Below are positions 3,204-54,470 of a DNA stretch of 64,000 nucleotides, piece after piece. The translations under genes were made by a program, and so were the position numbers. The stretch covers positions 2,599,205-2,663,204 of the forward strand of contig CP098402.1 in assembly GCA_025916675.1 (NCBI GenBank), given 5' to 3'. Position 1 is the first letter of the stretch. Each line of letters begins with the position of its first letter. The DNA comes from Phycisphaera sp. GTDB lineage: Bacteria > Planctomycetota > Phycisphaerae > Phycisphaerales > UBA1924. The notes beneath the pieces were generated by a model. That model had not been told where the DNA came from. It saw nothing but the letters and a program-made list of their open reading frames with translations, and did no database searches.

Positions 3204-3393
3204 GCACCCGACCAGGGGCCCCCACCAGTCGGCTCGCGGGGCGGCCCGGCCGACCGGCGATGCGCCCCAGCGGATCGGGGGGCGTCCCTGGTTGGTTGGC
3301 AGGAGCCACCAGTCGATCAGGAAGGGCCGCCAGCAAACTGGTGGCTCTTCCTAATTTTGGGATTGGAGCGCCCACGCCGGTGTTTTCGGACGC
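3204..3393. repeat. 21-bp phased repeat array 1
   Basis: Nine consecutive degenerate 21-bp units can be laid end to end from 3204, 3225, 3246, 3267, 3288, 3309, 3330, 3351 and 3372. Most begin with CC and follow roughly CCANYNGNTNGG with G-rich second halves. Units at 3303-3313 and 3337-3347 also form an 11-bp perfect stem (GAGCCACCAGT/ACTGGTGGCTC). The last unit ends with GTTTTCGGACGC (3382-3393), a 12-mer also found at the end of array 2. All frames are open only because the period is a multiple of three; I do not regard it as coding. Confidence 0.65.
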
Positions 3394-5077: not shown

Positions 5078-6106
5078 CTACCCCTCCACCAGCTTCAACG
5101 CCACCAGATCCTGCACGTCCAGCAACCCCACCGGCTTGCCATCGCCATCCACGATCGGCACCTCGTCCTGCCGATACTCGAGCACCAACGCCACCGCGTC
5201 GCGCGCCAGCGCCTCGCTCGAGATCGTCCGTGGGTTCCTCGTCATCACCTCGCCGATGGGCCGATCCAGCTCGGTCCGATCGCGCAGAACGAGCCGCCGC
5301 AAGTCGCCATCGGTAAAGATCCCCGCCAGCTTCCCCTCGGCATCCACGAGCAGGATCGCCCCCGGCCGGCGACCACTGGCCGTCTGCACCGCGTGCTGCG
5401 CCTCGATCACGCTCACGCTCTCGGGCGCGACGGGCAGATGGTCGTGGATCGTGCATCGGGCAATGTCCATCACCGGCCTGAGCGCGCCACCGAGCGCACC
5501 ACCGGGATGCCGCCGCGCAAAATCCGCATCGGTAAACCCCCGCCGCGCCGCCGCCGAGATCGCCAGCGCATCGCCCAGCGCCAGCGTCGCCGTCGTCGAT
5601 GCCGTAGGCGCACTGAACCGCGGGTGCAACGCCTCGTGATCGAGCCCGAGATACAACGGCACCGTCGCCAGCCGGCTCAGCGGGTCGGCCTGCTCACCAT
5701 CCGCCGGCTTCTTCCCCGTGATCGTCACGATCGGCAGCTTGTCCTGCCGGAGCAACCCGCACAGCGCCACCACCTCGGCCGTCTTCCCACTGAACGAGAG
5801 CGCCAGCACCAGATCGCTCGGCCGGAACCGCCCAAGGTCCCCATGGGCCGCCTCGGTCGGGTGCACCAGGTGGCTCGGGATCCCCAGCGATGCCATCGTC
5901 GCGCTGATCTTCGCCCCCACGTGCCCGCTCTTGCCCAGGCCCGTCACCAGCACCGTGCCCCCGCTCTGGGCGCACGTATCGATCATCTCGACCGCCTTGG
6001 CAAAGCCCTCCGGAAGATCGGCGAGCGCCCCCACCGCCGCGGCCTCTTCCCTGAGGAGTTGGCTGGCCAGTTCGAGATGCTCGGAGGTATTCGTCGCGGT
6101 CGTCAT
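5078..6106 (-). CDS. kdsD: Arabinose-5-phosphate isomerase (SIS + two CBS domains)
   Basis: A 342-residue protein starting MTTATNTSEH. It interconverts D-ribulose-5-phosphate and D-arabinose-5-phosphate, the first step to Kdo. The SIS domain covers about 35-190 (GLGKSGHVGAKISATMAS sugar-phosphate loop, HPTEAAHGDLG, LALSFSGKTAEVV, and the ADFARRHPGGALG linker typical of KdsD/KpsF/GutQ). Two CBS domains follow at about 205-275 and 285-340 (LLVDAEGKLAGIFTDGDLRR; VPIVDGDGKPVGLLDVQDL). The length matches the family. It is divergent from scpA with a 39-bp gap. The kdsA gene lies 6 kb away, so the pathway is split. Confidence 0.9.
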   Translation of the reverse strand: MTTATNTSEHLELASQLLREEAAAVGALADLPEGFAKAVEMIDTCAQSGGTVLVTGLGKSGHVGAKISATMASLGIPSHLVHPTEAAHGDLGRFRPSDLVLALSFSGKTAEVVALCGLLRQDKLPIVTITGKKPADGEQADPLSRLATVPLYLGLDHEALHPRFSAPTASTTATLALGDALAISAAARRGFTDADFARRHPGGALGGALRPVMDIARCTIHDHLPVAPESVSVIEAQHAVQTASGRRPGAILLVDAEGKLAGIFTDGDLRRLVLRDRTELDRPIGEVMTRNPRTISSEALARDAVALVLEYRQDEVPIVDGDGKPVGLLDVQDLVALKLVEG

Positions 6107-6145: not shown

Positions 6146-6967
6146 ATGGACGCCACCGGCCCCGCCATCGCCGTCGACGCCTTCGAGGGGCCCATGGACC
6201 TGCTCCTGCACCTGGTTCGCGTCCACGAGGTCGACATCCACGACATCCCCGTCGCCCTCATCGCCGAGCGGTACATGGAGGCTATTCGAGACCTCACCCG
6301 CATCGACATCGACACCGCCGGCGAGTTCCTGGTCATGGCCGCCACCCTGGCCGAGATCAAGAGCCGCGTCGTCGCCGCCGAGAACCTGAGCCCCGAAGAC
6401 GCCGAACGGGCCCAGCGCGAGCACACCAAGGAAGATAAGCAGCCCGAGGACCCGCGGGCCGAGCTCGTCCGCCAGCTCCTCGAATACAAACGCCTCCGCG
6501 ACCGCGCCGACGCCCTCGAAGAACGCCTGGCCACCTGGCAAAGCCGCGCCCGCGTCGCCCCCGCCCTGCGACCCTCTCGAGACGACGCCGAGGAAGACCT
6601 CGCCCTCGACATGGACGATTTGTCCTTGACCGATTTAGTCGAGGCCTTCGACCGCATCGCCAGCACCATCCAGTTCGACCGCCTGGGCGAGCACACCGTC
6701 ACCGACGACGACACCCCCATCGAGCTCCACCAGGCCGACGCCATCGACCGCCTCGAACGCGCCCGCACCGAAACCGGCAACCCCGCCCTGCCCCTGAGCG
6801 CCCTCTTCACCGGCCGAACCAGAGGCGAAGCCATCGGCATGTTCCTGGCCATCCTCGAACTCATCCGCAACGTCCGCGTCCGCGCGTGGCGGGGCGAAAC
6901 CAACGGCGAAGAACCCGGACAGGTCTGGTTGGGATTGGTCGAGACACAAACCCCCGCCGACAACTAA
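6146..6967 (+). CDS. scpA: Segregation and condensation protein ScpA
   Basis: A 273-residue kleisin that bridges the SMC dimer and ScpB in the bacterial condensin complex. The N-terminal signature is clear (VDAFEGPMDLLLHLVRVHEVDI…IPVALIAERYMEAI…AGEFLVMAATLAEIKSR). The middle is acidic and variable (ERAQREHTKEDKQPED), and a winged-helix C-terminal region is present (PALPLSALFTGRTRGEAIGMFLAILELIRN). The length is typical. scpB and smc are not in the window. The start ATG is close behind the divergent kdsD start. Confidence 0.9.
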   Translation: MDATGPAIAVDAFEGPMDLLLHLVRVHEVDIHDIPVALIAERYMEAIRDLTRIDIDTAGEFLVMAATLAEIKSRVVAAENLSPEDAERAQREHTKEDKQPEDPRAELVRQLLEYKRLRDRADALEERLATWQSRARVAPALRPSRDDAEEDLALDMDDLSLTDLVEAFDRIASTIQFDRLGEHTVTDDDTPIELHQADAIDRLERARTETGNPALPLSALFTGRTRGEAIGMFLAILELIRNVRVRAWRGETNGEEPGQVWLGLVETQTPADN

Positions 6968-7088: not shown

Positions 7089-9068
7089 TTACGCACACCC
7101 CGCATCGAACTCGTTCTGGAACGCCAGGAAATCAAAGATCGTGAACATGCCATCCCCATCGAAGTCGGCGATGGGGTCGGCGTCGTCGAAAAGATTGAAG
7201 AACTGCAAGAAGTCGAAGATGGTGAGTTCACCATCGCCGTCCAGATCGACGCGGCACGGCACGGCACAATCCATCGCAATCGGATTGAACGACACTATGC
7301 CCTTCGTTGGATCATCGCCGTTGTCGTAGATCATGCCAGCGATCTCGACGAGGTCATCCGTGCCCCAGCACACGCCGGTCGCGTCGATGTCGCTTGCCGA
7401 GCCGTTGTAGATGGCCGAACCCAAGTCGGCACTATTGCCCAACAAGCGATTGAACACGCCGGCCTCGGCGGCCATCGAGAACTCACCGCCCGATCGAACA
7501 TGAATGGCACCGCCCAATCGGGCCGAGTTGTCCTGGAAGCTATTGCCGACCAGCCGCACATCACCGTCCCTGATATTTCCGATCGCTCCGCCGATGTCGG
7601 CCTGGTTCCCACGGAACGTGTTGCTCTCGATGCGCAGGCCGAGCCCGAACGTCACGGCGACCAGATCGATGGCCCCACCCGCGGCTGTTGTACTGTTCTC
7701 AAGGAATTGATTGCCCGCGACGAGAACAGTATCGGGCCGCTCCAGGATGCGCAGGGCACCCGCGCTCTCGGTTGCCGAGTTGTCCCGGAACACATTATCA
7801 ATGACCTGAGCGTTGCGACTGCCCACCGTAAGGCCGCCGCTGAGAACCCCGGTGTTGCCCTCGAACACGCAACCGCGGATGATGATCGTCTCGAGCGCAC
7901 TCGTTGCAGCCACGGCGATGAGTCCACCTCCGGAACTGCTCGCGGCCGAGTTGCCAGTGAACGTGCATTGTTCGACAAGGCAGGTATGTGCATCGTTCGC
8001 CAGGCGGAGCTCGGCACCACCCCCGCTACGCTCACTGGAATTATTTATAAAATGGCATCGTCGGATCTCAATATCTCTACCACCAAAAAAGAGTCCACCC
8101 CCACGGCCAGCTGCCGAGCCAGGCACGTGGTTGTTCTCAAATACGCAGTCCTGAATCCGCCATCCTGAGGCCTGCCAGATGCCAGCACCGCCACCGTTGG
8201 TCGTGGTCCCTCCCAGGTTGTTGTTCCGAAAGACACATCGCTCGAGCAACCCACCGCCACCACCGCGCACGTCAACCGCACCGTTGAGCATGCCCTCGAA
8301 TACACAATCCGTGATGATCGTGACATCGGTAGTGTTGATATCCATGGCGACTTGGGAGTCACGAATCTCAACGTCACTGATCTCGATTCTTGAGTCGTCG
8401 TCCCGATGCGCGGAAGAACTGATCGCAAGGCGGCTGTTGACAATTCGGCCGCCAATCACTCGCACGTCATTGGTGCTGTTGGCCTCGATGCCGCCGAACG
8501 CATCCTGGATATCTACATCGAGCAGCCAAGCCGTTCGATCATCGCTCGGATTGCGGATCGAGATCGCGGGGCCCCCGCCCGTGATGGTCGCATGCTCGAT
8601 GAACGGCGTGGATTCGTTCGCATCGATAGGTGATGCCGCATCGGTGATGTGAACGTGACGCAGGAGGCAGCCACGCACATACCGTCCATCGGTTGTTGCG
8701 ACCGCGTCGAGAGCCGAGTCCTTTATCCCGATGCCGAGCCACACATCTGGCCCCGGAATCAGCGCGGCGAACGTAATCGGTTCGTCGGCGGTGCCATCGG
8801 CGATCAATGCGGCTGGACTTGCACCTACCAGGGGCTCGCCGACCTCGATGCCAGTACCATCGACGAATAACACCTGCACACCGGGCTCGATCGTCAGAGT
8901 GGCAGAATCTCGGACGAAGATTGTTGATGTCACGTGATATGGACTCTCCGCCTGGGTCCAGGTGGTGTCCTCATCGAGCACTCCACCTACGAGCGTTTGA
9001 GAGCGACAGTTGGACGTAAAGAGGAGCATCGCTGCCCACACTGCAAAACACGAAGACCTTGCCATCAT
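7089..9068 (-). CDS. Secreted right-handed beta-helix protein with GC-type dockerin tail
   Basis: A 659-residue exported protein. I prefer the ATG at 9068, which has GGAG six bases upstream, over the in-frame ATG at 9080. A signal peptide (SSCFAVWAAMLLFTSNC) is followed by roughly twenty parallel beta-helix rungs between about residues 60 and 590, visible as repeated phrases such as RCVFRNNNLGG, VFENNHVPG, CHFINNSSERSGGGAEL and NTFRGNQADIGGAI. Such helices bind or cleave polysaccharides, but no catalytic residues stand out. The C-terminus is the dockerin double module starting CRVDLDGDGELTIFDFL and ending FQNEFDAGCA. A neighbouring dockerin gene lies upstream in the same orientation. Confidence 0.85.
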   Translation of the reverse strand: MMARSSCFAVWAAMLLFTSNCRSQTLVGGVLDEDTTWTQAESPYHVTSTIFVRDSATLTIEPGVQVLFVDGTGIEVGEPLVGASPAALIADGTADEPITFAALIPGPDVWLGIGIKDSALDAVATTDGRYVRGCLLRHVHITDAASPIDANESTPFIEHATITGGGPAISIRNPSDDRTAWLLDVDIQDAFGGIEANSTNDVRVIGGRIVNSRLAISSSAHRDDDSRIEISDVEIRDSQVAMDINTTDVTIITDCVFEGMLNGAVDVRGGGGGLLERCVFRNNNLGGTTTNGGGAGIWQASGWRIQDCVFENNHVPGSAAGRGGGLFFGGRDIEIRRCHFINNSSERSGGGAELRLANDAHTCLVEQCTFTGNSAASSSGGGLIAVAATSALETIIIRGCVFEGNTGVLSGGLTVGSRNAQVIDNVFRDNSATESAGALRILERPDTVLVAGNQFLENSTTAAGGAIDLVAVTFGLGLRIESNTFRGNQADIGGAIGNIRDGDVRLVGNSFQDNSARLGGAIHVRSGGEFSMAAEAGVFNRLLGNSADLGSAIYNGSASDIDATGVCWGTDDLVEIAGMIYDNGDDPTKGIVSFNPIAMDCAVPCRVDLDGDGELTIFDFLQFFNLFDDADPIADFDGDGMFTIFDFLAFQNEFDAGCA

Positions 9069-44437: not shown

Positions 44438-46858
44438 CTACCAGATGCTGACCGGGTCGACGTCGACGGCCACGTGGGCATCGCTGACCAGGCCGTGCTC
44501 GGCGCGGATCTTGAGCAGGCCGTCGCGCAGGATGCCGGCGCTGGCGGCGTAGACCTCGAGGCCGACGCGGTACTCATCGTGGGCGCGTTCGAGGGGGGCG
44601 GGGGCGGGGCCTTCGACCCTGGCCTTGTCGCCGAAGGCGTCGTGCAGGCGCTGGGCGATGGCGTGGGCGCGGGCCTCGGCCTTGTCGTAGTGGCGGTCTC
44701 TCGCCACGATCCAGGCGGCGCGGGTGAAGGGGGGCAGGTGGGCGTGCTGCCTGACCTCGAGTTCGTCCTTGGCGAAGCGTTCGTAGTCGTGGGCTGCGGC
44801 GGCCTGGATGCTGGGCAGGTCGGGGCTGAGGGTCTGCACGATGACGCGGCCGGGCTTGGTGCCCCGGCCCGCGCGGCCGGCGACCTGGCTGACGAGCTGG
44901 AAGGTGCGCTCCTGGCAGCGCCAGTCGGCGATGCCCAGAGCAGTATCGGCGTCGACGACGCCGACCAATCTAATGTTTGGGAAGTCGAGGCCCTTGGCGA
45001 TCATCTGGGTGCCCAATAAAACCTTGATCGACCCGTCGGCGATGCGGGTGAGCACGCCCTGGTAGTCGGCGGCGCGGTTCATGGTGTCGCCGTCCATGCG
45101 GGCGATCTCGGACTCGCGCAGGCCGATCATGTCAACCAATTCGTCTTCGAGGCGCTGCGTGCCGCGGCCGAGGAGGATGGTCTTCTTGGCGCACACCGGG
45201 CAACTCTTGGGCATCATCTGCTCGGCCAGGCAGTGGTGGCAGCGGACGAGCCCGCGGCGGCTCATGACGCCCTTGCGGTGGAAGACCATGGCGGCCGAGC
45301 AGGAGTCGCAGTTGAGCGTCCAGCCGCACATGGCGTCGGGGCAAGCGACGACGCGGGCGAAGCCGCGGCGGTTGAGGAGCATGACGGCCTGGCCGCCATC
45401 GTCGAGAGTCTGCCTGAGCGCGATTTCTAAAGTTGGGCCCAGCAACTCCATACGGTGGCCACGCTGCCTGCTCGCTTTACGCTCCTCGGCGAGATCGACG
45501 ACCTCGACCATGGGCAGGCCGGCCGAGCCGGGGGCGCGTGTTGGCATGCGCCAGAGTGTCGAGCGGTTGAGCTGCGCGTTGCGCCAGCTCTCCAAGCTCG
45601 GGGTTGCCGAACCGAGGAGCACGGGGCAGCCCTCGATCTGGGCCCGCTTGATGGCGGCGTCGCGGCCGTGGTATCGCGGGGCCTGGTCCTGCTTGTAGTC
45701 GCTGGCGTGTTCTTCGTCGACGACAATGAGACCAACATTGGTGAGCGGTGCGAAGAGGGCGGATCGTGGGCCGACGACAACGCGGGCGAGGCCACGCGAG
45801 ACGGCGTCCCAGGCGCGGTGGCGCTGGCCGGCGCTGAGGCCCGAGTGCAAGACCGCCACGCCGCGCTCGCCGAGTTGCGGCGCGAACCGTGCGATGAAGC
45901 GCGACGAGAGCTGGGGTGTGAGCGCGATCTCGGGGACGAGGACGATGCCGGATTTACCCGACGCCAGCACGCGGTCGAGCAGTTGCAGGTAGACCTCGGT
46001 CTTGCCGGAGCCGGTGACGCCGAAGAGGAGGTGGGTGGAGAACCCTTCCAATGGCACCCCGTCGATCACGGCTTCTTGTTCTTGTGTTGGTGTGGGCGCG
46101 GGGGTGGTATCGAGGGCCAGGGGCGTGGCGTCTTGCGTGCGCGCGACGACGTCGGTGAGGGTGATTTCTTCGAGCAGGCCCAGGGTCACGAGGCGGCGGA
46201 TGGGGCTGGCGTTCTTGAGTCCGAGGCGGTGAACGAGGTCGCGTTCTTCGAGGGGCCAGGCGTCGGCGGGGATCTCGCCCAAGCCTACGAACGCCTTCTT
46301 GGTCGTGGGTGGGAGCTTCAATGAGCCCCCGGCGCGAGCGGGGGGAATGGCCGTCGGATCTCCCCCCTCGTCCTTCGGACGTTGGTGTCCCCTCGCTTGC
46401 GCGAGGGGCTCGTTGGGGGTGGGCTCGGATGGCCGCAGCGCCACACGCTCTTTCCGCCCCACCGCCTTCTTGACGGCCGCGGGCAGCATGGCGGCCAGGG
46501 TCATGCCCAGGGGGCAGGCGTAGTACTCGGCGATCCATCGTCCCAGTTCGAGCACGCCCTCGGGCAGCCTCGCGTCGCTCACCGCGAGCAGGCGGCGAAC
46601 CTTGCTGGGGTCGAAGCCATCGAGCAGTTCGGCCCCGCCCACGCCGACGATGACGCCGCGGGTGGGCGTGCCACCCTTGCCGCCTCTGCCTAAGGGAGCC
46701 ATGCACGCGCGGCCGACGAGCGCGTTGGCGGCTTCCTCGCTCTCGGCGGGCGGGGCGTAGGTCAGGGTCTTGCCGTCGATGGAACGCTCGAGGGCGACGG
46801 CGAGGAAGGGGCCGGCGGGGGTTGGGCGGTCGTCCTTGAAGAGGCCGGGTGCGGTCAC
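44438..46858 (-). CDS. priA: Primosomal replication-restart helicase PriA
   Basis: About 806 residues from the GTG at 46858. The N-terminal DNA-binding domain (PFLAVALERSIDGKTLTYAPP…RGVIVGVGG) is followed by a proline-rich linker that contains a REPIN-like insertion (residues 150-179). Then come the helicase core (GVTGSGKTEVYLQLLDR; DEEH box VVDEEHASDYKQD; SATPSLES; QVAGRAGRG) and paired zinc Cys clusters (CPDAMCGWTLNCDSCSAAM; CHHCLAEQMMPKSCPVC). It restarts stalled forks. A second copy of its 5' end lies beyond the next gene (48725-48895), so its own promoter region may be recent. Confidence 0.92.
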   Translation of the reverse strand: MTAPGLFKDDRPTPAGPFLAVALERSIDGKTLTYAPPAESEEAANALVGRACMAPLGRGGKGGTPTRGVIVGVGGAELLDGFDPSKVRRLLAVSDARLPEGVLELGRWIAEYYACPLGMTLAAMLPAAVKKAVGRKERVALRPSEPTPNEPLAQARGHQRPKDEGGDPTAIPPARAGGSLKLPPTTKKAFVGLGEIPADAWPLEERDLVHRLGLKNASPIRRLVTLGLLEEITLTDVVARTQDATPLALDTTPAPTPTQEQEAVIDGVPLEGFSTHLLFGVTGSGKTEVYLQLLDRVLASGKSGIVLVPEIALTPQLSSRFIARFAPQLGERGVAVLHSGLSAGQRHRAWDAVSRGLARVVVGPRSALFAPLTNVGLIVVDEEHASDYKQDQAPRYHGRDAAIKRAQIEGCPVLLGSATPSLESWRNAQLNRSTLWRMPTRAPGSAGLPMVEVVDLAEERKASRQRGHRMELLGPTLEIALRQTLDDGGQAVMLLNRRGFARVVACPDAMCGWTLNCDSCSAAMVFHRKGVMSRRGLVRCHHCLAEQMMPKSCPVCAKKTILLGRGTQRLEDELVDMIGLRESEIARMDGDTMNRAADYQGVLTRIADGSIKVLLGTQMIAKGLDFPNIRLVGVVDADTALGIADWRCQERTFQLVSQVAGRAGRGTKPGRVIVQTLSPDLPSIQAAAAHDYERFAKDELEVRQHAHLPPFTRAAWIVARDRHYDKAEARAHAIAQRLHDAFGDKARVEGPAPAPLERAHDEYRVGLEVYAASAGILRDGLLKIRAEHGLVSDAHVAVDVDPVSIW
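46323..46411. repeat. REPIN-like inverted pair inside priA
   Basis: Two imperfect inverted copies of a 23-24-bp GC palindrome sit at 46323-46345 and 46388-46411, about 40 bp apart. The second reads CCCCTCGCTTGCGCGAGGGG with GCTC after it, and the first is close to its reverse complement. They lie in frame within the PriA interdomain linker and encode a Pro/Gly/Ala-rich insert. A related single copy is at 31006-31029. Confidence 0.6.
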
Positions 46859-46881
46859 CCGAGAGGGTATGGGCCGTCCCC

Positions 46882-48696
46882 CTAGGACTCGCACCCCGCG
46901 TCGAACGCGTCCTGGAACGCCAGGAAATCGAACAGCGTCAGCTCGCCGTCGCCATCGAAGTCGGCCTGGGGGTCGCCGTCCTGGAAGAGGTTGAAGAAGG
47001 CCAAAAAATCGAAGACCGTCAGCACGCCGTCCCCATCGAGGTCGGCCGGGCAGCCTCGCACACTCCGCCCGTACACCACGTAGGTCGAGCCTGCCCAGGA
47101 GCTCCCGCGCGGGCTCGCCCACGGTGCTCCGACGATCAGGTCGGCCATGCCATCTCCGTTGATGTCGCCCGCCGACGCGATGGACGTGCCGGCCTCATCG
47201 CGCTCCGACTCGCCATCGAGCCGCAAGCCGATCCGGCCATCGAGGCTCGCGAGCCCGATCGTTGCGGGGAATACGTCTCCGGCGGGTCCGTTGCGTCCGA
47301 ACAGCACGAAGCCGGCACCGGGGGGTCTCGGGTCTCCCTCCCACGGGCCGGGCGCGCCGATGGCCAGGTCATCGATGCCGTCGCCGTTGAGGTCGCCCGC
47401 CAAGGCGACCGAGGTGCCGCTGCGATCGAACGCGTCGGCGCCGTCGATGCGGAATCCGTCCAAGCCATCGAGGGACGCGAGTTCGAGGTCGAGCGGGAAC
47501 GCGTGGCCTGCTCTGCTGTCGCGGCCGAAGACCACGAAGCTCGCGCCCGCCGTGGCCAGGCCTCCGGCATCGGTGCTATACGCGCCGATGATCACGTCGT
47601 CGATGCCGTCGGCATTGACATCGCCAGCCCCGGCAACGGAATACCCGCTGCTCGTGCGGTAGTCGGCGTCGTTGAGGCGGAAGCCGTTGATGCCATCGAG
47701 GTCGGCCACGCTGAGCACGCTCGTGAATGCATGGCTCGCATCCTGGCCAAAGACCACGAACGTTGACCTGCTGTTGGATGCACCGATGATGACGTCGCCG
47801 ACACCATCGGCGTTGAGGTCGCCAGCCGACGAAACGGCGAAGCCGGTGAAAGACAGCTCGGACACGCCGTTGATGCGGAACCCGTTGGAGCCGTCCAGCG
47901 ACTCCAGGCCGAAGGCCGCGGGGAACGCGCCGGCGGTCTTGGTATCGCGGCCAAAGACGATGTAGGCCGACCCCGCGTCGGTAAAGCCGCCGATGTTCGT
48001 GAATGGCGCGCCAATGACCATGTCATCGATGCCGTCGCCGTTCACGTCGCCCGCCGCGGCGACGCTTCGGCCGACCGAGTCTGTAGGGCTTTCTCCGTCC
48101 ATGCGAAAGCCATCGGTGCCGTCCAGCGATGCCAGATCGAGCCGTGCGGGGAACGCGGCCCCGGTCGCGAATTCCCTGCCAAAGACGACATAGCTCGAGC
48201 CAGAATCAAAGACGGCACGGAGATCCTCTCGCGGGGCGCCGATGATCAGGTCGTCGATGCCATCGCCGTTCACGTCGCCCGCCGACGCGACCGAGCGACC
48301 CGTCCACGCGGTCTCGGACACGCCATCGAGGCGGAAGCCGTCGACGCCGTCCAGCGATTCGAGTGGGAGACGCGCGGGGAATGGAGCGCCAGCCGTGCCG
48401 TCACGACCGAACACCACGAAGGCCGATCCGGGGAGATAGCTCGACCAGCCCCCGTAGGCACCGATCACGAAGTCATCGAACCCGTCACCGTTGAGGTCGC
48501 CCGCCGAGGCGACCGAAGAGCCGCTTAGGCGGAGCTCATCGACGCCGTCCAACCGGAAGCCGAGCGCGCCGTCGAGCGCGCCGAGTTCGAGAACAGATGG
48601 AAAGGGTTCGGACAATGGCCCCTGGGCGACCGCGAAGCCGGCCAAACCTGAAGTCATCACAATCGCGCCCACGCGTTGGGTGGTTGCTCTTCGCAT
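46882..48696 (-). CDS. Secreted FG-GAP (integrin-like propeller) protein with GC-type dockerin tail
   Basis: A 604-residue exported protein with signal peptide ending GLAGFAVAQG. Seven to eight FG-GAP repeats fill residues 30-540, each carrying a calcium loop such as SAGDLNGDGFDDFVIGAY or SAGDVNGDGIDDLIIGAP spaced about 63 residues apart. These form a seven-bladed integrin-alpha-like propeller. The dockerin begins CPADLDGDGVLTVFDFL and ends DAFDAGCES. The gene lies between priA and a remnant copy of the priA 5' end, which suggests it arrived between duplicated ends. A surface-binding role is inferred. Confidence 0.85.
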   Translation of the reverse strand: MRRATTQRVGAIVMTSGLAGFAVAQGPLSEPFPSVLELGALDGALGFRLDGVDELRLSGSSVASAGDLNGDGFDDFVIGAYGGWSSYLPGSAFVVFGRDGTAGAPFPARLPLESLDGVDGFRLDGVSETAWTGRSVASAGDVNGDGIDDLIIGAPREDLRAVFDSGSSYVVFGREFATGAAFPARLDLASLDGTDGFRMDGESPTDSVGRSVAAAGDVNGDGIDDMVIGAPFTNIGGFTDAGSAYIVFGRDTKTAGAFPAAFGLESLDGSNGFRINGVSELSFTGFAVSSAGDLNADGVGDVIIGASNSRSTFVVFGQDASHAFTSVLSVADLDGINGFRLNDADYRTSSGYSVAGAGDVNADGIDDVIIGAYSTDAGGLATAGASFVVFGRDSRAGHAFPLDLELASLDGLDGFRIDGADAFDRSGTSVALAGDLNGDGIDDLAIGAPGPWEGDPRPPGAGFVLFGRNGPAGDVFPATIGLASLDGRIGLRLDGESERDEAGTSIASAGDINGDGMADLIVGAPWASPRGSSWAGSTYVVYGRSVRGCPADLDGDGVLTVFDFLAFFNLFQDGDPQADFDGDGELTLFDFLAFQDAFDAGCES

Positions 48697-48724
48697 GCTA
48701 TGCCCTTCTGGAGCGCGGCTTGCT

Positions 48725-48895
48725 TCACCGGCTCTCTTCGTCCGCGAATTTCGACACTCTGCATTGATCTTGTGCAGACAAATCGGTCACGATCGGAGCG
48801 AACTCGGTCAGGGTCTTGTCATCGATGGAGCGCTCGAGGGCGACGGCGAGGAAAGGGCCCGGGGGTGATTCTTCGCTAAACAGTTCTTTGCTCAC
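48725..48895 (-). pseudogene. Duplicated 5' fragment of priA
   Basis: A 56-codon frame from GTG 48895 reads SKELFSEESPPGPFLAVALE…, and 19 residues (GPFLAVALERSIDxKTLT) match the start of PriA. The DNA match is about 47 bp with four differences (48812-48858 against 46770-46816). After the match the frame diverges and stops. The reading frame has kept its start, so it might still be translated, but it lacks every helicase motif. It lies just upstream of the FG-GAP gene. Confidence 0.65.
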
Positions 48896-48923
48896 ATCGG
48901 GCAATGCACAGCCGGAGCGAGGC

Positions 48924-51683
48924 TCACCGGCACCCATCCTCGAACGCCCCCTGGAAGCACAGGAAGTCGAAGATATCGATCGAACCGTCGCCGGTGCAGT
49001 CGGCGGCGGGTTCGCCGGCCATGAAGGCGCTCTGGAAGCAGAGGAAGTCGAGGATGTCGAGGGTGCCCGAGCGGTCGCAGTCGGCGATGCACACCGACTC
49101 GCAGGCGTCGGGGATGGCGTTGGCGTTGCGGTCGAGCGGGCCGGGCATGAAGTCGAAGCCCTTGGGGTGGTCGAGCTTCGAGTCTCCGCCCTGGACGTAG
49201 GCGAAGGTGAGCTTGCCGCTGACGCCGTCGTATTGGAAGATGTGGGGGCGGGTCAGGTGCAGGCCGGCGGTGTGCGGGCCGAGTTCGCCGGCGGGCGGGG
49301 GTGCCGTGCGGGCGTGCAGGTTGGCGCTGCTGACGTAGACGTTGCCGTCGGGGCCGAGGCGCAGGCCCCAGGGGTGGCGCAGCTTGAAGTTGAGATCCCC
49401 TTCGTTCCACTGGCCGATCAGGGTACCAGTGTCGGCGTGGAACTCGTAGATGCCCCCGTGGATCCAGTATTCACATGCCACCAGACAGCGCACGCCCTGG
49501 CCCGCCGGTCGCGGCAGGAACAGGATGCCCCGCGGCTCGCGGATCGTGCGCGGGTCCGGATCGGGCTCGATCGTGATGAACACGCGAACGAACGCGCCCG
49601 AGTCGCGATCGAACTCGAGCACGCGGGCATCGTCGGTTGTGACAAAGAGGTTGCCTTCGGGCTTGAACGCCATGGCCCGGGGGCCGACCAAGCCGCCCGC
49701 ACCCGCCTCGATGAACACGCCTCGGAACGCCCCGGTGTCAAGGTCGTACCTCAGCACGGCATCACCGCCCTGGTCGGCCACCAGCAGCGAGCCATCGGGG
49801 GCGAACGCCATGGCCGAGGGCGCGACGAGGCCGCCCGAACCGGGTCGCACGAGGTGGCGGACGTACACGCCCTCGCGGTCGAGCTCGACCACGCTGGCGT
49901 TGCCCGCGTCGGCTACGAGCACGCGGCGGTCGGTGGTGATGAGCACGTCGGTGGGATCGACCAGGACGTTCTCGCCCGCCTCGGCGCGGAGCACGCCGCT
50001 GCGGTAGTGGTACTCCTTGACCATGCCATCGCCCGAGGACACGGCCCAGAGGCTGTGGGCATGGTCGAGGGCGTCGATGTCCATGATGCCGTCGCCGTCG
50101 CAATCCTGGGTGGCGTCGAGCACGCCGTCGCGGTCGATGTCGAGGCTCATGTCGCGGAAGATGTCGGTCCAGTCGGGCACGCCGTTGCCGTCGCGGTCGG
50201 CCTGGCACTCGTCGGGGATGCCGTCGCCGTTCTCGTCGTTGCCATTGGCGATGTCCAGGTCGTCGGGGATGCCGTTGGCATTGCAATCGGGCTCGCACTC
50301 ATCAGGGATGCCGTTGAGGTTGAGGTCGCTGCTGCTTCCGGCGGCGATGTCTTCGGTGTCGAGGATGCCATTCGCATTGCAGTCTTCGCATTCGTCTGGA
50401 ATGCCGTTGGCGTTGGCGTCCTGGCTTGTGCCCATCATGATGTCGAGGGTGTCGTCGAGGTAGTTCTGGTTGCAATCGAATACGAGTCGGCGCGGGCTGC
50501 AGTCGTTGATCTCTTGACGCATGCGCGTGTGGTAGTGCAGGTCGGTGAGGGCGGCACGCCCGCTGAACGTCTGGGCGCAGTAGCTCTGGATGGTGCCCCG
50601 CTGGGGTCGCGAATCGGCGATATCGCACCGATCGACTCCGCGGTCGTGGGTGTGTGGTGCGCCGAGGTTGTGGCCGATTTCGTGAGCGGCGATGCGGATG
50701 TCCTGGTTGAAGATACCGGGGCTGGTTGGGCTTGACATCTGGCCCGTGGCGTACGCAACCCAGGAATCCGAACCACAGATTCGTGCTCGTCCGCCTGCGC
50801 TCGCATCTTTCCGTCCACTCATCAGTTGGGCGACATCTCGATCGATCTCGCGGGGGATAGCACCGGGGAATGTCGCACCGGTGGGCTCGTACGGATCGCT
50901 CGCGCGCGTGATGAATAGGCGCAGGAAGATGAGGTCGAGTCGCACGTTCACGTCTCGTATCGTGAGATCGCTGGTGGTGGCGTAGAGCTGGGCGAGATAG
51001 GTGAGTGCGGCGCGCTCGTCGTTGAAGAGCTCGTAGAACGCGAAGTCGCTGTCGACCGCCAGCCGCGCCATGCGCAGGCCGCCGGCCGGTGCGGGCGTGT
51101 AGGGGCCGACGGGCGCGATGCTGTCGTGCGTACCGGTGGCGGTGCCACACAGGGTCGGGGCGATCTGCGGGCCGAAGGTGCCCGCCGCCTCGAACACGAC
51201 GATCTGGCCTTCGCCCAGCGCGACGCCGCCATTACGCGGGTCCCCGCCGTTGGATGAGACCACGTACGTGGGTTGGCTCGCTCCCATTTCGATTCGGCCG
51301 ATGGTCGAGCCGTCCGCAACGCTCAGGAAGACGTGCGAACCGGGGCGGCCCTCGACAGATCCGCGCCAGAAGGTGATGGAAGCGGGATCAAAGTCGGCCG
51401 GGCGCTGGCCGGCCTCATCGACGACGACGATGCGAGCGCCGGGGGCAAACACGCGGAAGGGCTCGAGGTTGAGGTCGGCCGTGGCTCCGTCGGGCAGTGG
51501 GAAGCGTGCGAAGCGCACCGCTTCTCGCCTGGCAAGCGGCGCCGCATCGATGCTGGTGACGGCCACGCCCGAAGCCTGCGTCGACTGGCGGGCGAATTCG
51601 ACCGTTGTTTGGTCGGCCGCCACGCCGGTACTGGCGAACATGAACGACGCGACGGCGGCGCAGAGGGAGGTATGGAGCTTCAT
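48924..51683 (-). CDS. Secreted reprolysin-like metalloprotease with six-Cys GC-type dockerin
   Basis: A 919-residue protein from the ATG at 51683 (MKLHTSLCAAVASFMFAST, signal peptide). A prodomain (residues 35-200) precedes an M12B-type metalloprotease with zinc site AAHEIGHNLGAPHTHD. Where its tandem paralogue has Met in the Met-turn (GTIMSYC), this protein has Gln (GTIQSYC). Calcium-rich thrombospondin-3-like repeats follow (NANGIPDECEDCNANG…), then NHL-type propeller blades (VLITTDRRVLVADAGN; AMAFAPDGSLLVADQG). The dockerin carries extra Cys in both halves (DFLCFQ, ADCTGDG). It is a likely exo-protease or matrix-binding enzyme. Confidence 0.85.
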   Translation of the reverse strand: MKLHTSLCAAVASFMFASTGVAADQTTVEFARQSTQASGVAVTSIDAAPLARREAVRFARFPLPDGATADLNLEPFRVFAPGARIVVVDEAGQRPADFDPASITFWRGSVEGRPGSHVFLSVADGSTIGRIEMGASQPTYVVSSNGGDPRNGGVALGEGQIVVFEAAGTFGPQIAPTLCGTATGTHDSIAPVGPYTPAPAGGLRMARLAVDSDFAFYELFNDERAALTYLAQLYATTSDLTIRDVNVRLDLIFLRLFITRASDPYEPTGATFPGAIPREIDRDVAQLMSGRKDASAGGRARICGSDSWVAYATGQMSSPTSPGIFNQDIRIAAHEIGHNLGAPHTHDRGVDRCDIADSRPQRGTIQSYCAQTFSGRAALTDLHYHTRMRQEINDCSPRRLVFDCNQNYLDDTLDIMMGTSQDANANGIPDECEDCNANGILDTEDIAAGSSSDLNLNGIPDECEPDCNANGIPDDLDIANGNDENGDGIPDECQADRDGNGVPDWTDIFRDMSLDIDRDGVLDATQDCDGDGIMDIDALDHAHSLWAVSSGDGMVKEYHYRSGVLRAEAGENVLVDPTDVLITTDRRVLVADAGNASVVELDREGVYVRHLVRPGSGGLVAPSAMAFAPDGSLLVADQGGDAVLRYDLDTGAFRGVFIEAGAGGLVGPRAMAFKPEGNLFVTTDDARVLEFDRDSGAFVRVFITIEPDPDPRTIREPRGILFLPRPAGQGVRCLVACEYWIHGGIYEFHADTGTLIGQWNEGDLNFKLRHPWGLRLGPDGNVYVSSANLHARTAPPPAGELGPHTAGLHLTRPHIFQYDGVSGKLTFAYVQGGDSKLDHPKGFDFMPGPLDRNANAIPDACESVCIADCDRSGTLDILDFLCFQSAFMAGEPAADCTGDGSIDIFDFLCFQGAFEDGCR

Positions 51684-51716
51684 GGTATTCACTCTCGCTG
51701 GGGTGGCGGCTGGCAT

Positions 51717-54470
51717 TTACGGGCATCCATCCATGAACGCGGCCTGGAAGCACAGGAAATCGAACACGTCGAACGAGCCGTCGCCCGTGCAGTCGGCGAT
51801 GGGCTCGCGGGCATCGAAGGAGGTCTGGAAGCACAAGAAGTCGAAGATGCCCAGCTCGCCGTCGCCATCGCAGTCTGCGGTGCACAGCGACTCGCATTCG
51901 TCGGGCACGCCGTTGCGGTTGCGGTCATCGCTGCGGCCGTCGGCGATGTCGCAGGCGTCTGGGATGCGGTTGAGGTTGCAGTCGTGGGCGTCGCCGGGGA
52001 CGAAGTCGAAGCCGGTGGGCGTGGTCGTGGCGGCGTCGACTCCGGCGACCAGGGCCAGGAAGATCGAGCCCGACGTGGCGTCGAAGCCGAGGATGGCCGG
52101 CGGGAAGAGCAGCGGAGAGGAACCCGCCGAGGCGCGGTGGATGCTGGCGTAGACCACGCCGTCGGGGCCCAGGCGCAGGGCCCAGGGGTCGGCCAGCCGA
52201 CCCCGCCACGTACCGACGCTGAACTGGCCAACATATGCGCCGGTGTCGGCGTCGAACTCCATGATGGCGTCGGTTTCCATGTCGGCGACGAGGAATCGCC
52301 AGGTGCCCGCTTCGAGGCCGGGGACGAACAGGATGCCGCGGCTCTGGGCGATGCCGCCATCGCCAGGCTGCACGAACTGGCGGACGTGCGCGCCGGTCAC
52401 GCCGTCATACTCGACCACGCCGCTATTGTCGGTTCCGACGAATAGGTTGCCGCTGGGGCCGAAGATCAATGAGTACGGCTCGATCAGACCGCCCGCTCCA
52501 GATCCAACGAGATCACCCAACGAAGATCCGGTCGCGAGGTCGTAGCGGCGCACCGCATTGGCGTCGCGATCGGCGACGAGCAACTCGCCATCTATCCCAA
52601 TCGCCATGGCAGTGGGATAGATGAGCCCGCCGGTGCCGGTCGTGACAAGATCGCGCACGAAGGCACCGTCGAGGTCAAACTCAACGATCCGCGCGTCGGC
52701 ACCGCTGGCGACGAGCACGCGGCGATCGGGCGTGACCAGCACGTCCATCGGCTCGCTGAGCAGGCCGTCGGCGGAGGTCGAGCGGAGCACGCCGGTCTGG
52801 AAGTGGTGGCCGTTGACGGTGTTGCGGTCCAGATCGGCGGTCCAGGTGTTGTGGGCGTGGTCCATCGCGATGACGTCGGACACGCCGTCGCCGTCGCAGT
52901 CCTGGCAGGCGTCGAGGATTGCGTCGCGGTCGAGGTCGAGCGACATGTCGTTGACGATGTCGACCCAATCGAAGACGCCGTTGCCGTCGCAGTCGGCCTG
53001 GCACTCGTCGGGGATGGCGTCGCCGTTGGCGTCCTGGCTGACGCCGTCGGCGATGTCCTGGTCGTCGGGCACGCCGTTGGCGTTGCAGTCGGGCTCGCAC
53101 TCGTCGGGGATGCCGTTCTCATTGAGATCGAGGCTCGTGCCGCTGGCGATGTCGGCGTCGTCGAGCACGCCGTTGCCGTTGCAATCTTCGCACTCGTCGG
53201 GGATGCCGTTTCCGTTGGTGTCCGTGCTGCGGCCGCTGGCGATGTCAAGGGCGTCGGCGATGTGGTTCTGGTTGCAGTCGAAGTGGAGTCGACGCGAAAC
53301 ACAGTCGCGGATGCGATCCCGCAGGCCTGCGTGGAAGTGCATATCCCGCAGCGCGGCGCCGCCGCTGAAGGTCGTACTGCAGTAGCTCATGATCGTGCCG
53401 CGTCGGGGCTGGGACGACGCGGTTGCGCACTCGTCGATGCCGTACTGGTGGGTGTGCCCGGTGCCCAGGCTGTGGCCGAGCTCGTGCAGCACGACGCCGA
53501 TGTCGTGGTTGAAGACGGTAGGGATCGAGGTGTCGGAGAGTCGGCCGATGCCATACCCCACCCACGAGGCAGTCGCGCAGATGCCCGCGGCCTGCCCACC
53601 GTACGGCGCATCCTTGCGCCCGGACATGAGCTGGGACACGTCGTACACCACGCCCGGTGGGATCTGCGGGTAGCCCACACCCCGCTCATAGGGATGATCG
53701 CGAGTCGTCCATACACGAAGAAACACGAGGTCGAGCCGGACGCCGGTGTCGCGGATGAAGACGTCGCTCGCGGCGGCGTACATCTGGGCGAGGAAGGTCA
53801 GGGCCGCGCGCTCGTGCTCGAACAACTGGTACATCGCGTAGTCGGCATCGACCGCCAGTTTGGCCATCCGCAGACCGCGCACCATGGGGCCGTAGGTCGG
53901 GCCGAGCACCGAGCCCGGCCCATCGCCCCCGGGCGGGGGGTCGAGGTTCGCGGGCCCGACGGGCACGATGCCGACGCCGCAGGGAGACGGCGCGAGATCG
54001 GCGGCCATACCGACTTTTTGCCGGTATACCACAATCTCCGCCGGATCGCCCCCGCTCGAACTGATGGCGTACGTCGGCCGGCTCGCACCCAACTCGACCC
54101 GACCGACCGTCGAGCCCTCCGCAACCGACAGGAACACATGCGAGCCCGGATAGCCCGAGACCGTGCCCCGCCAGAACGCGATGGACGATGGATCGAAATC
54201 GGCCGGCCGCTCGCCGGCCCCGTCGGCGACCACCACCCGGGCATCGGGCGCGAACACGCCGAAGGGCTCAAGGACGAGGTCGACCTGGGTTCCATCGGGC
54301 AGGGGGAATCGCTCGAGGATCGCCGACTCGCCGGCCAGGGCGTCACGGTCTAGGGTGAGCACCACACCGGGTGTTGCCGGCGACCACCGACCGTCCTGTG
54401 CCCGGGCGTGCCCGACCAGCACCAGAACGCACACGCACGCCGCGATCGCGGCCGCCAGCCGATGCACCAT
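51717..54470 (-). CDS. Secreted reprolysin-like metalloprotease with six-Cys GC-type dockerin
   Basis: A 917-residue paralogue of the preceding gene, with GGGGAGG ahead of the ATG. The signal peptide (AAAIACVCVLVLVGHARA in sense) leads to a prodomain (RFPLPDGTQVDLVLEPFG; FWRGTVSGYPGSHVFL) and an intact metzincin site (VVLHELGHSLGTGHTH) with Met-turn RRGTIMSYC. The Ca-binding repeats, propeller and dockerin order is the same, ending FMDGCP. The two genes lie 33 bp apart and are probably one operon derived by tandem duplication. A reverse-strand TATATT at 54517-54512 could be the -10 box. Confidence 0.86.
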   Translation of the reverse strand: MVHRLAAAIAACVCVLVLVGHARAQDGRWSPATPGVVLTLDRDALAGESAILERFPLPDGTQVDLVLEPFGVFAPDARVVVADGAGERPADFDPSSIAFWRGTVSGYPGSHVFLSVAEGSTVGRVELGASRPTYAISSSGGDPAEIVVYRQKVGMAADLAPSPCGVGIVPVGPANLDPPPGGDGPGSVLGPTYGPMVRGLRMAKLAVDADYAMYQLFEHERAALTFLAQMYAAASDVFIRDTGVRLDLVFLRVWTTRDHPYERGVGYPQIPPGVVYDVSQLMSGRKDAPYGGQAAGICATASWVGYGIGRLSDTSIPTVFNHDIGVVLHELGHSLGTGHTHQYGIDECATASSQPRRGTIMSYCSTTFSGGAALRDMHFHAGLRDRIRDCVSRRLHFDCNQNHIADALDIASGRSTDTNGNGIPDECEDCNGNGVLDDADIASGTSLDLNENGIPDECEPDCNANGVPDDQDIADGVSQDANGDAIPDECQADCDGNGVFDWVDIVNDMSLDLDRDAILDACQDCDGDGVSDVIAMDHAHNTWTADLDRNTVNGHHFQTGVLRSTSADGLLSEPMDVLVTPDRRVLVASGADARIVEFDLDGAFVRDLVTTGTGGLIYPTAMAIGIDGELLVADRDANAVRRYDLATGSSLGDLVGSGAGGLIEPYSLIFGPSGNLFVGTDNSGVVEYDGVTGAHVRQFVQPGDGGIAQSRGILFVPGLEAGTWRFLVADMETDAIMEFDADTGAYVGQFSVGTWRGRLADPWALRLGPDGVVYASIHRASAGSSPLLFPPAILGFDATSGSIFLALVAGVDAATTTPTGFDFVPGDAHDCNLNRIPDACDIADGRSDDRNRNGVPDECESLCTADCDGDGELGIFDFLCFQTSFDAREPIADCTGDGSFDVFDFLCFQAAFMDGCP

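Follow-up and report, generated by a model that had tools for sequence, protein, structure and literature searches.

Integrase-driven islands displace and restore the end of a gene, leaving the intact gene on one side and the displaced end on the other. Insertion with homology on one side only, known as homology-facilitated illegitimate recombination (HFIR), has been described in competent bacteria (Acinetobacter, Streptococcus pneumoniae and Pseudomonas stutzeri), as well as in E. coli conjugation, for which a frequency of 3e-10 per recipient is given (PMC3240628); the process is reported to be rare in experiments (PMC3240628, PMC5361080). In the T6SS clusters of Vibrio cholerae, insertion of effector-immunity modules is accompanied by displaced remnants, for which the authors suggest an HFIR-like mechanism that they call rare (PMC5361080). 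Transformation of S. pneumoniae is described as producing merodiploids with tandem duplications of about 100–900 kb (PMC3784515).

Here, a stretch of 64,000 nucleotides from a Phycisphaera sp. genome (the window) was analysed, and we lean, with little better than even confidence, towards reading the locus upstream of its priA gene as the scar of one additive gene acquisition by one-sided, homology-anchored insertion (HFIR). On the minus strand the order is a metalloprotease/dockerin gene (48924–51716), an open frame of 56–59 aa (48725–48895/48904; the fragment), an FG-GAP/dockerin gene (46882–48696) and priA (44438–46858). The comparison set consisted of six congeners (G001–G006) and the window genome (G000), giving 7 priA genes and 21 pairs. 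The features are as follows.

44438–46858, minus strand: priA, intact copy, 806 aa, GTG start at 46858 (TIGR00595, 529.9 bits against a cut-off of 230.35; PF17764, PF18074, PF00270)
46698–46872, minus strand: G001-like patch at the priA 5' end, probably recombinant, limits approximate (codon alignment, shuffles)
46760–46813, minus strand: inner copy of the 54-bp core common to priA and the fragment (50/54)
48806–48859, minus strand: outer copy of the same 54-bp core (50/54)
46859–46881, minus strand: 23-nt spacer from the FG-GAP stop to the priA start, containing CCATACCCT (46864–46872); putative promoter role
46882–48696, minus strand: FG-GAP-repeat protein with a GC-type dockerin C-terminus, 604 aa; inserted accessory gene (PF01839, NF041540)
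48725–48904, minus strand: priA 5'-end relic (GTG at 48895, possible TTG at 48904), open to 48725 (alignment, protein search, shuffles)
48924–51716, minus strand: reprolysin-like metalloprotease with a GC-type dockerin end (Pfam, NCBIfam)
51717–54470, minus strand: reprolysin-like paralogue adjoining the 48924–51716 gene (Pfam; dockerin model at 27.9 against 29 bits, just under the cut-off)

The initial annotation had placed a dockerin gene between two priA 5' segments, and this arrangement was found at 46882–48696. The intact priA passed the PriA equivalog cut-off (TIGR00595, 529.9 vs 230.35) and starts at the GTG at 46858 as proposed, although the sequence quoted for its beginning, PFLAVALERSIDGKTLT, starts at about residue 18. 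The FG-GAP protein contained seven PF01839 stretches (Pfam), and its dockerin end passed the curated cut-off of NCBIfam model NF041540 (E 8.9e-13, 48.4 vs 29 bits), with no Pfam dockerin match at E 0.01. Only 23 nt separate its stop from the priA start, and 28 nt separate the fragment stop from its ATG. The fragment itself begins 19–28 nt past the metalloprotease stop, which is the ancestral position of priA (the corresponding spacers in G004 and G005 are 30 and 28 nt). There was no recombinase in the insert, where the FG-GAP gene is the sole gene recognised by Pfam, and none of the 25 inverted pairs listed, out of 41, brackets it; by these two features the insert does not classify as a transposon or integrase element.

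Aligned base by base, the two 5' segments shared 54 ungapped bp (46760–46813 and 48806–48859) with 50/54 identities, not a long repeat, and 3 of the 4 differences were silent as read from codons. Within the window, blastn reported this match as 63 bp at 90% (E 1.8e-16), and ~2e-13 matches of 50/54 would be expected there by chance if bases are modelled, simply, as independent; no third place in the 3.6-Mb genome resembled the core at E ≤ 0.001. Upstream of the core, in the leader, similarity falls off at once (17/36 identical to priA), and the likeness is recognisable only as peptide (VSKELFSEESPPGP vs VTAPGLFKDDRPTPAGP; 67/20000 shuffles scored equally). Past LT(E/Y), the frame of the fragment departs from that of priA, and the window alignment gave no convincing similarity between the two. 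Thus the earlier description of the fragment as almost the same protein and DNA sequence applies to the 54 bp at 50/54; the leader is no more than peptide-like and the frame diverges. The similarity to priA ends inside the fragment; a non-homologous joint at this border of the insert is putative. The fragment retains the GTG at 48895, as was noted initially, and an in-frame TTG at 48904 (LPD...) could be an older start. It looks like a stump without evident role that is decaying, in agreement with what had been proposed for the outer copy.

The fragment is a mosaic relative to the window priA, with a contrast between leader (17/36) and core (50/54; P 2.5e-6) that is sharper than between orthologues. 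The divergence of its core from the window priA was indistinguishable from that between orthologues (110/126; P 0.44), whereas its leader matched more poorly than the leaders of orthologues match each other (59/84; P 0.02). Core identities were 50/54 to the window gene, 49/54 to G001, 45/53 to G004 and 46/53 to G005, and the leader was about equidistant from all congeners (41–58%). In a tree of the short 5' segment the fragment had a long branch and grouped with G006 (support 46), a placement that the tree does not settle.

An uninterrupted priA locus, which the initial annotation had suggested looking for in related genomes, was present in four of the six congeners. In G002, G003, G004 and G005 the metalloprotease/dockerin gene and priA are direct neighbours, and neither an FG-GAP gene nor a fragment intervenes; this empty site is the arrangement expected before an HFIR event. 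G001 has a different insert of 3.26 kb between the metalloprotease gene and priA (the contig has a coverage of 1.1, and the insert needs confirmation), while in G006 no metalloprotease gene of that type was found in the 13.8 kb fetched upstream of priA. No FG-GAP gene directly preceded priA in any of the six congeners (0/6), and the donor was not found among them. As a protein query, the fragment had priA as its best match in 5 of 6 congeners, while in G002 it reached priA at E 0.18 and had no better match, and matches in the six congeners beyond priA were at E 0.098 or worse. At the DNA level, 7 genomes in a draw of 120 from the family gave matches: the window genome in both the fragment and priA, G004 and G005 in priA, and a further four over no more than 29–39 bp, at E 6e-4 or worse. 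The fragment being an independent conserved gene, which had been named as an observation that would refute the initial reading, was therefore not seen in these genomes.

The G001 insert (L033, 7279–10539) consists of small ORFs and lies at the same metalloprotease–priA junction, beside the priA 5' patch that G001 shares with the window genome; none of its four scanned ORFs reached a Pfam cut-off. It was also considered as the replaced ancestor and rejected, its matches elsewhere in the 7 genus genomes being all short and partial. Dockerin-ended sequences were also observed on the other side of priA in G003 (L035, 16631–17509) and G004 (L036, 16273–16455), before the next gene, which we take to be an ilvE-like aminotransferase. 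It seems that the priA neighbourhood has gained dockerin-ended genes more than once.

The first 46 codons of the window priA were 95.7% identical to G001 in the codon alignment (6/138 nt differed), compared to 85.0% for the rest of the gene (328/2190 differed). This is the reverse of the other species pairs, in all of which (20/20) the 5' part was less alike than the rest. With G004 as the third sequence, informative sites divided 24:4 in the 5' part vs 137:289 in the rest (Fisher P 2e-8), and the same contrast with G005 gave P 2e-7. Among 144 windows along the alignment the first had the lowest ratio, which 0/2000 codon-column shuffles reached. The patch, of ~150 bp, directly follows the insert, as a homologous anchor with exchange at one insert border would leave it. 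Most likely, the first ~150 bp of the window priA were exchanged with a G001-like lineage. In trees, the 5' part put the window gene beside G001 (support 75, weak) and the rest put it outside G001, G004 and G005 (support 49, weak). Because the rest of priA places the window species outside these three, import into the window genome is weakly favoured as the direction.

The word CCATACCCT lies 5 nt before the priA GTG in the window and, at the same distance, before priA in G001, G004 and G005 (3 of 6 congeners); it is absent from the fragment and from the priA genes of G002, G003 and G006. A sigma-70 consensus scan did not flag this spacer. We regard the 23-nt spacer as promoter-like and a promoter role as putative. 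Since only 3 of 6 congeners have CCATACCCT, its absence from the fragment is weak evidence on which copy is native.

Within priA itself, the linker contains a stretch (window positions 46315–46425) that is in frame and partly palindromic (z −1.9 for the single-strand DNA fold), and the window PriA is 806 aa long vs 775–776 in G001, G004 and G005. The stretch holds a ~30-bp motif (around CCCCTCGCGCAAGCGAGGGG) that occurs in 8 further places in the genome and also in G001, G003 and G006, with one of the G003 matches falling inside the G003 priA. The motif appears to be a REP-like repeat, dispersed in the genome, that has gone into a protein-coding gene.

The bracketing by two priA 5' ends, the empty site in congeners, the lack of an independent gene like the fragment and the G001-like patch were all observed directly. 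We favour HFIR because a foreign patch follows the insert, a native stump precedes it and marks of a mobile element are lacking. The ancestral state would have been the metalloprotease/dockerin gene followed directly by priA, and the donor would have been linear DNA from a relative, carrying an FG-GAP/dockerin gene and then the 5' end of that relative's priA. The priA end of this DNA would have paired with the recipient priA, a crossover within priA would have swapped about the first 150 bp and the spacer for the donor version, and the other end would have been attached by an illegitimate joint at about codon 30–35 of the former priA 5' end. The patch and the FG-GAP gene would in this way have entered together. 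The product would read metalloprotease, native priA 5' stump, FG-GAP gene and intact priA with a donor 5' end, in which the intact gene retains a start and a promoter-like spacer and the stump may decay. The inner priA 5' end accordingly looks imported in sequence comparisons, and the outer fragment has the appearance of the native end that stayed next to the metalloprotease gene, because it lies at the ancestral place and its core has diverged as far as orthologues have (P 0.44). The direction of transfer, the linear form of the DNA, the illegitimate joint and the uptake route are parts of this scheme that we infer. ComEC and DprA domains are encoded in the genome; both also score in the E. 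coli and B. subtilis controls and are not diagnostic of competence.

Several observations count against HFIR: an FG-GAP gene before priA was not found in the six congeners, the closest relatives of the FG-GAP protein are only 54–55% identical and lie at other loci, G001 has a different insert, and HFIR is an infrequent event in experiments. G001 itself is unsupported as the source of the FG-GAP gene, with a best match of 47% over nearly the whole length. Moreover, a native end undergoing even decay does not predict the contrast between leader and core (P 2.5e-6). HFIR does not fully account for this contrast, which would be explained by crossing over or conversion within the core. The fragment mosaic, with its unlike leader and near-identical core that ends abruptly, would follow from a Campbell-type single crossover in the core, by which a circular molecule with the FG-GAP gene plus a short stretch of priA 5' sequence entered the native priA and left flanking direct repeats; the patch in the intact gene, however, spans leader and core to about codon 50, and the switch points differ unless an extra gene conversion is added, making this route unlikely in our view. 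A tandem duplication of a segment of the genome's own chromosome, after which insertion or rearrangement brought in the FG-GAP gene and the outer copy decayed, is consistent with the core being nearest to the window priA (50/54, next to 49/54, 45/53 and 46/53 for G001, G004 and G005). Such a duplication should leave one contiguous segment alike over the shared length, whereas the leader matched at 17/36, the core at 50/54 and nothing was recognisable beyond; it also leaves the G001-like patch unexplained and needs a second event for the FG-GAP gene. Uneven decay could in principle mask a tandem duplication, which we nonetheless hold to be distinctly unlikely. The origin by duplication or insertion that was proposed initially stands insofar as an FG-GAP-free arrangement exists, but in its plain tandem form it clashes with the leader and the G001-like patch.

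The opposite assignment of the two ends, in which the intact priA 5' end is native and was passed to G001 while the fragment arrived with the FG-GAP gene from a third species, would fit both the nearly equal distance of the fragment leader from all congeners (41–58%) and the weak tree supports for the direction of the patch. It is highly improbable given that the fragment occupies the native position beside the metalloprotease gene and that its core is closest to the window gene. That the fragment is an independent small gene, as its open frame with a GTG start might suggest, or resembles priA by chance is scarcely credible: the chance expectation is ~2e-13, no second copy better than E 0.098 occurred in any of the six congeners (6/6), and among the 7 of 120 family genomes with DNA matches only the window genome had the fragment, four matches being of 29–39 bp at E 6e-4 or worse. 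Both versions were rejected, the first on the congener and family searches, which return priA or weak matches, and the second on the expectation. A crossover between the two dockerin-ended genes, metalloprotease and FG-GAP, at their 3' ends was disfavoured, as the dockerin modules there are only 61% alike (repeat family D4).

Whether dockerin genes generally spread between housekeeping genes by such events, as the initial annotation suggested, was addressed with 41 FG-GAP stretches (21 from this genus, including the window, and 20 from other genera; part of the FG-GAP loci found) and 20 controls. Direct repeats of ≥ 40 bp, ≥ 80% identity and ≥ 300 bp apart were scanned for, excluding pairs within one called gene or overlapping FG-GAP or metalloprotease matches. 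The scan gave 11 pairs in 9/41 FG-GAP stretches vs 1 pair in 1/20 controls. A relic of a neighbouring gene was recognised in 3/41 FG-GAP stretches (the window, L102 and L150) vs 0/20 controls (P 0.54), a count for which the repeat pairs in L087, L095, L142, L151, L153 and control L129 were read in less depth than the others; the general claim is thus unsupported. The repeat in L090 was rejected as a neighbour-gene relic, being a repeated dockerin-gene tail. A protein relic scan found L102 at its first limit, which misses the window owing to an upstream extension of priA by the gene caller; the window and L150 were found with a looser N-terminal limit, applied to the FG-GAP stretches, with the controls scanned at the first limit. 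Further rows appeared in these scans, also in controls, and most of them were attributed to paralogues or to dockerin ends. In control L129, a row at the stretch edge (266–454) was 36% identical to the N-terminus encoded by an adjacent gene.

In L102 (G005:C1:1450000-1464000; repeats at 5333–5522 and 7998–8187) a ketosynthase gene is followed by an FG-GAP gene and a decayed ketosynthase 3' end, which matches its own copy at 156/190 and that of G004 at 137/189. Because G000 and G004 have the ketosynthase/FG-GAP pair as well, but no relic, this relic probably does not mark entry of the FG-GAP gene, which would be older. Ahead of the ketosynthase relic lies a weak match to the N-terminus of the dockerin gene that comes next. 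L150 (G082:C17:30000-45000) has a 148-bp direct repeat (98%; 3208–3355 and 6538–6685) that brackets an M28 peptidase gene and a gene of no assigned function, not the adjacent FG-GAP gene. It contains the end of a DJ-1/PfpI gene and a palindrome with a T run, read as a putative terminator, and 52–60 bp of it are present once more between the two bracketed genes. Probably only the window relic marks the entry of an FG-GAP gene. We consider it very unlikely that one-anchored additive recombination, leaving a stump and a foreign patch per entry, is a common route by which large families of secreted FG-GAP/GC-dockerin genes come to lie between Phycisphaeraceae housekeeping genes. Separately, the C-terminal modules of neighbouring genes in L098 (10262–10427/13623–13788; dockerin modules, by position) and L039 (5531–5734/7008–7211) were 93–96% identical in DNA, which suggests conversion or exchange of gene ends.

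Among the papers listed by full-text searches, judged by titles and the starts of abstracts, none had a title on such scars at dockerin genes, which is no claim of absence from print. At present the window locus offers a single, fairly well resolved instance of a process already known. It documents in nature the entry of an accessory gene into the space before an important housekeeping gene, which stayed unbroken, in a lineage known through metagenome assemblies; a scan for gene acquisitions that lack mobile-element marks would become possible should the pattern prove general. The locus resembles an integrase island in having the intact gene restored on one side and the displaced end on the other, and differs in that its insert is one ordinary gene in which no integrase was seen. 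Like S. pneumoniae merodiploids, which illustrate that transformation can leave duplicated segments as direct repeats, it holds a repeated segment, but this is a short 5' end compared to about 100–900 kb (PMC3784515). With the V. cholerae T6SS clusters it shares an anchored event that adds an accessory gene and pushes older sequence aside as a remnant; there, immunity genes are displaced into an array, whereas in the window a housekeeping gene has left its 5' end as the stump (PMC5361080). The closest likeness is to HFIR as PMC3240628 describes it, with one homologous anchor, one illegitimate end and linear DNA added next to the anchor, the difference being that here the event is known from its product alone, in a Phycisphaeraceae lineage known from MAGs.
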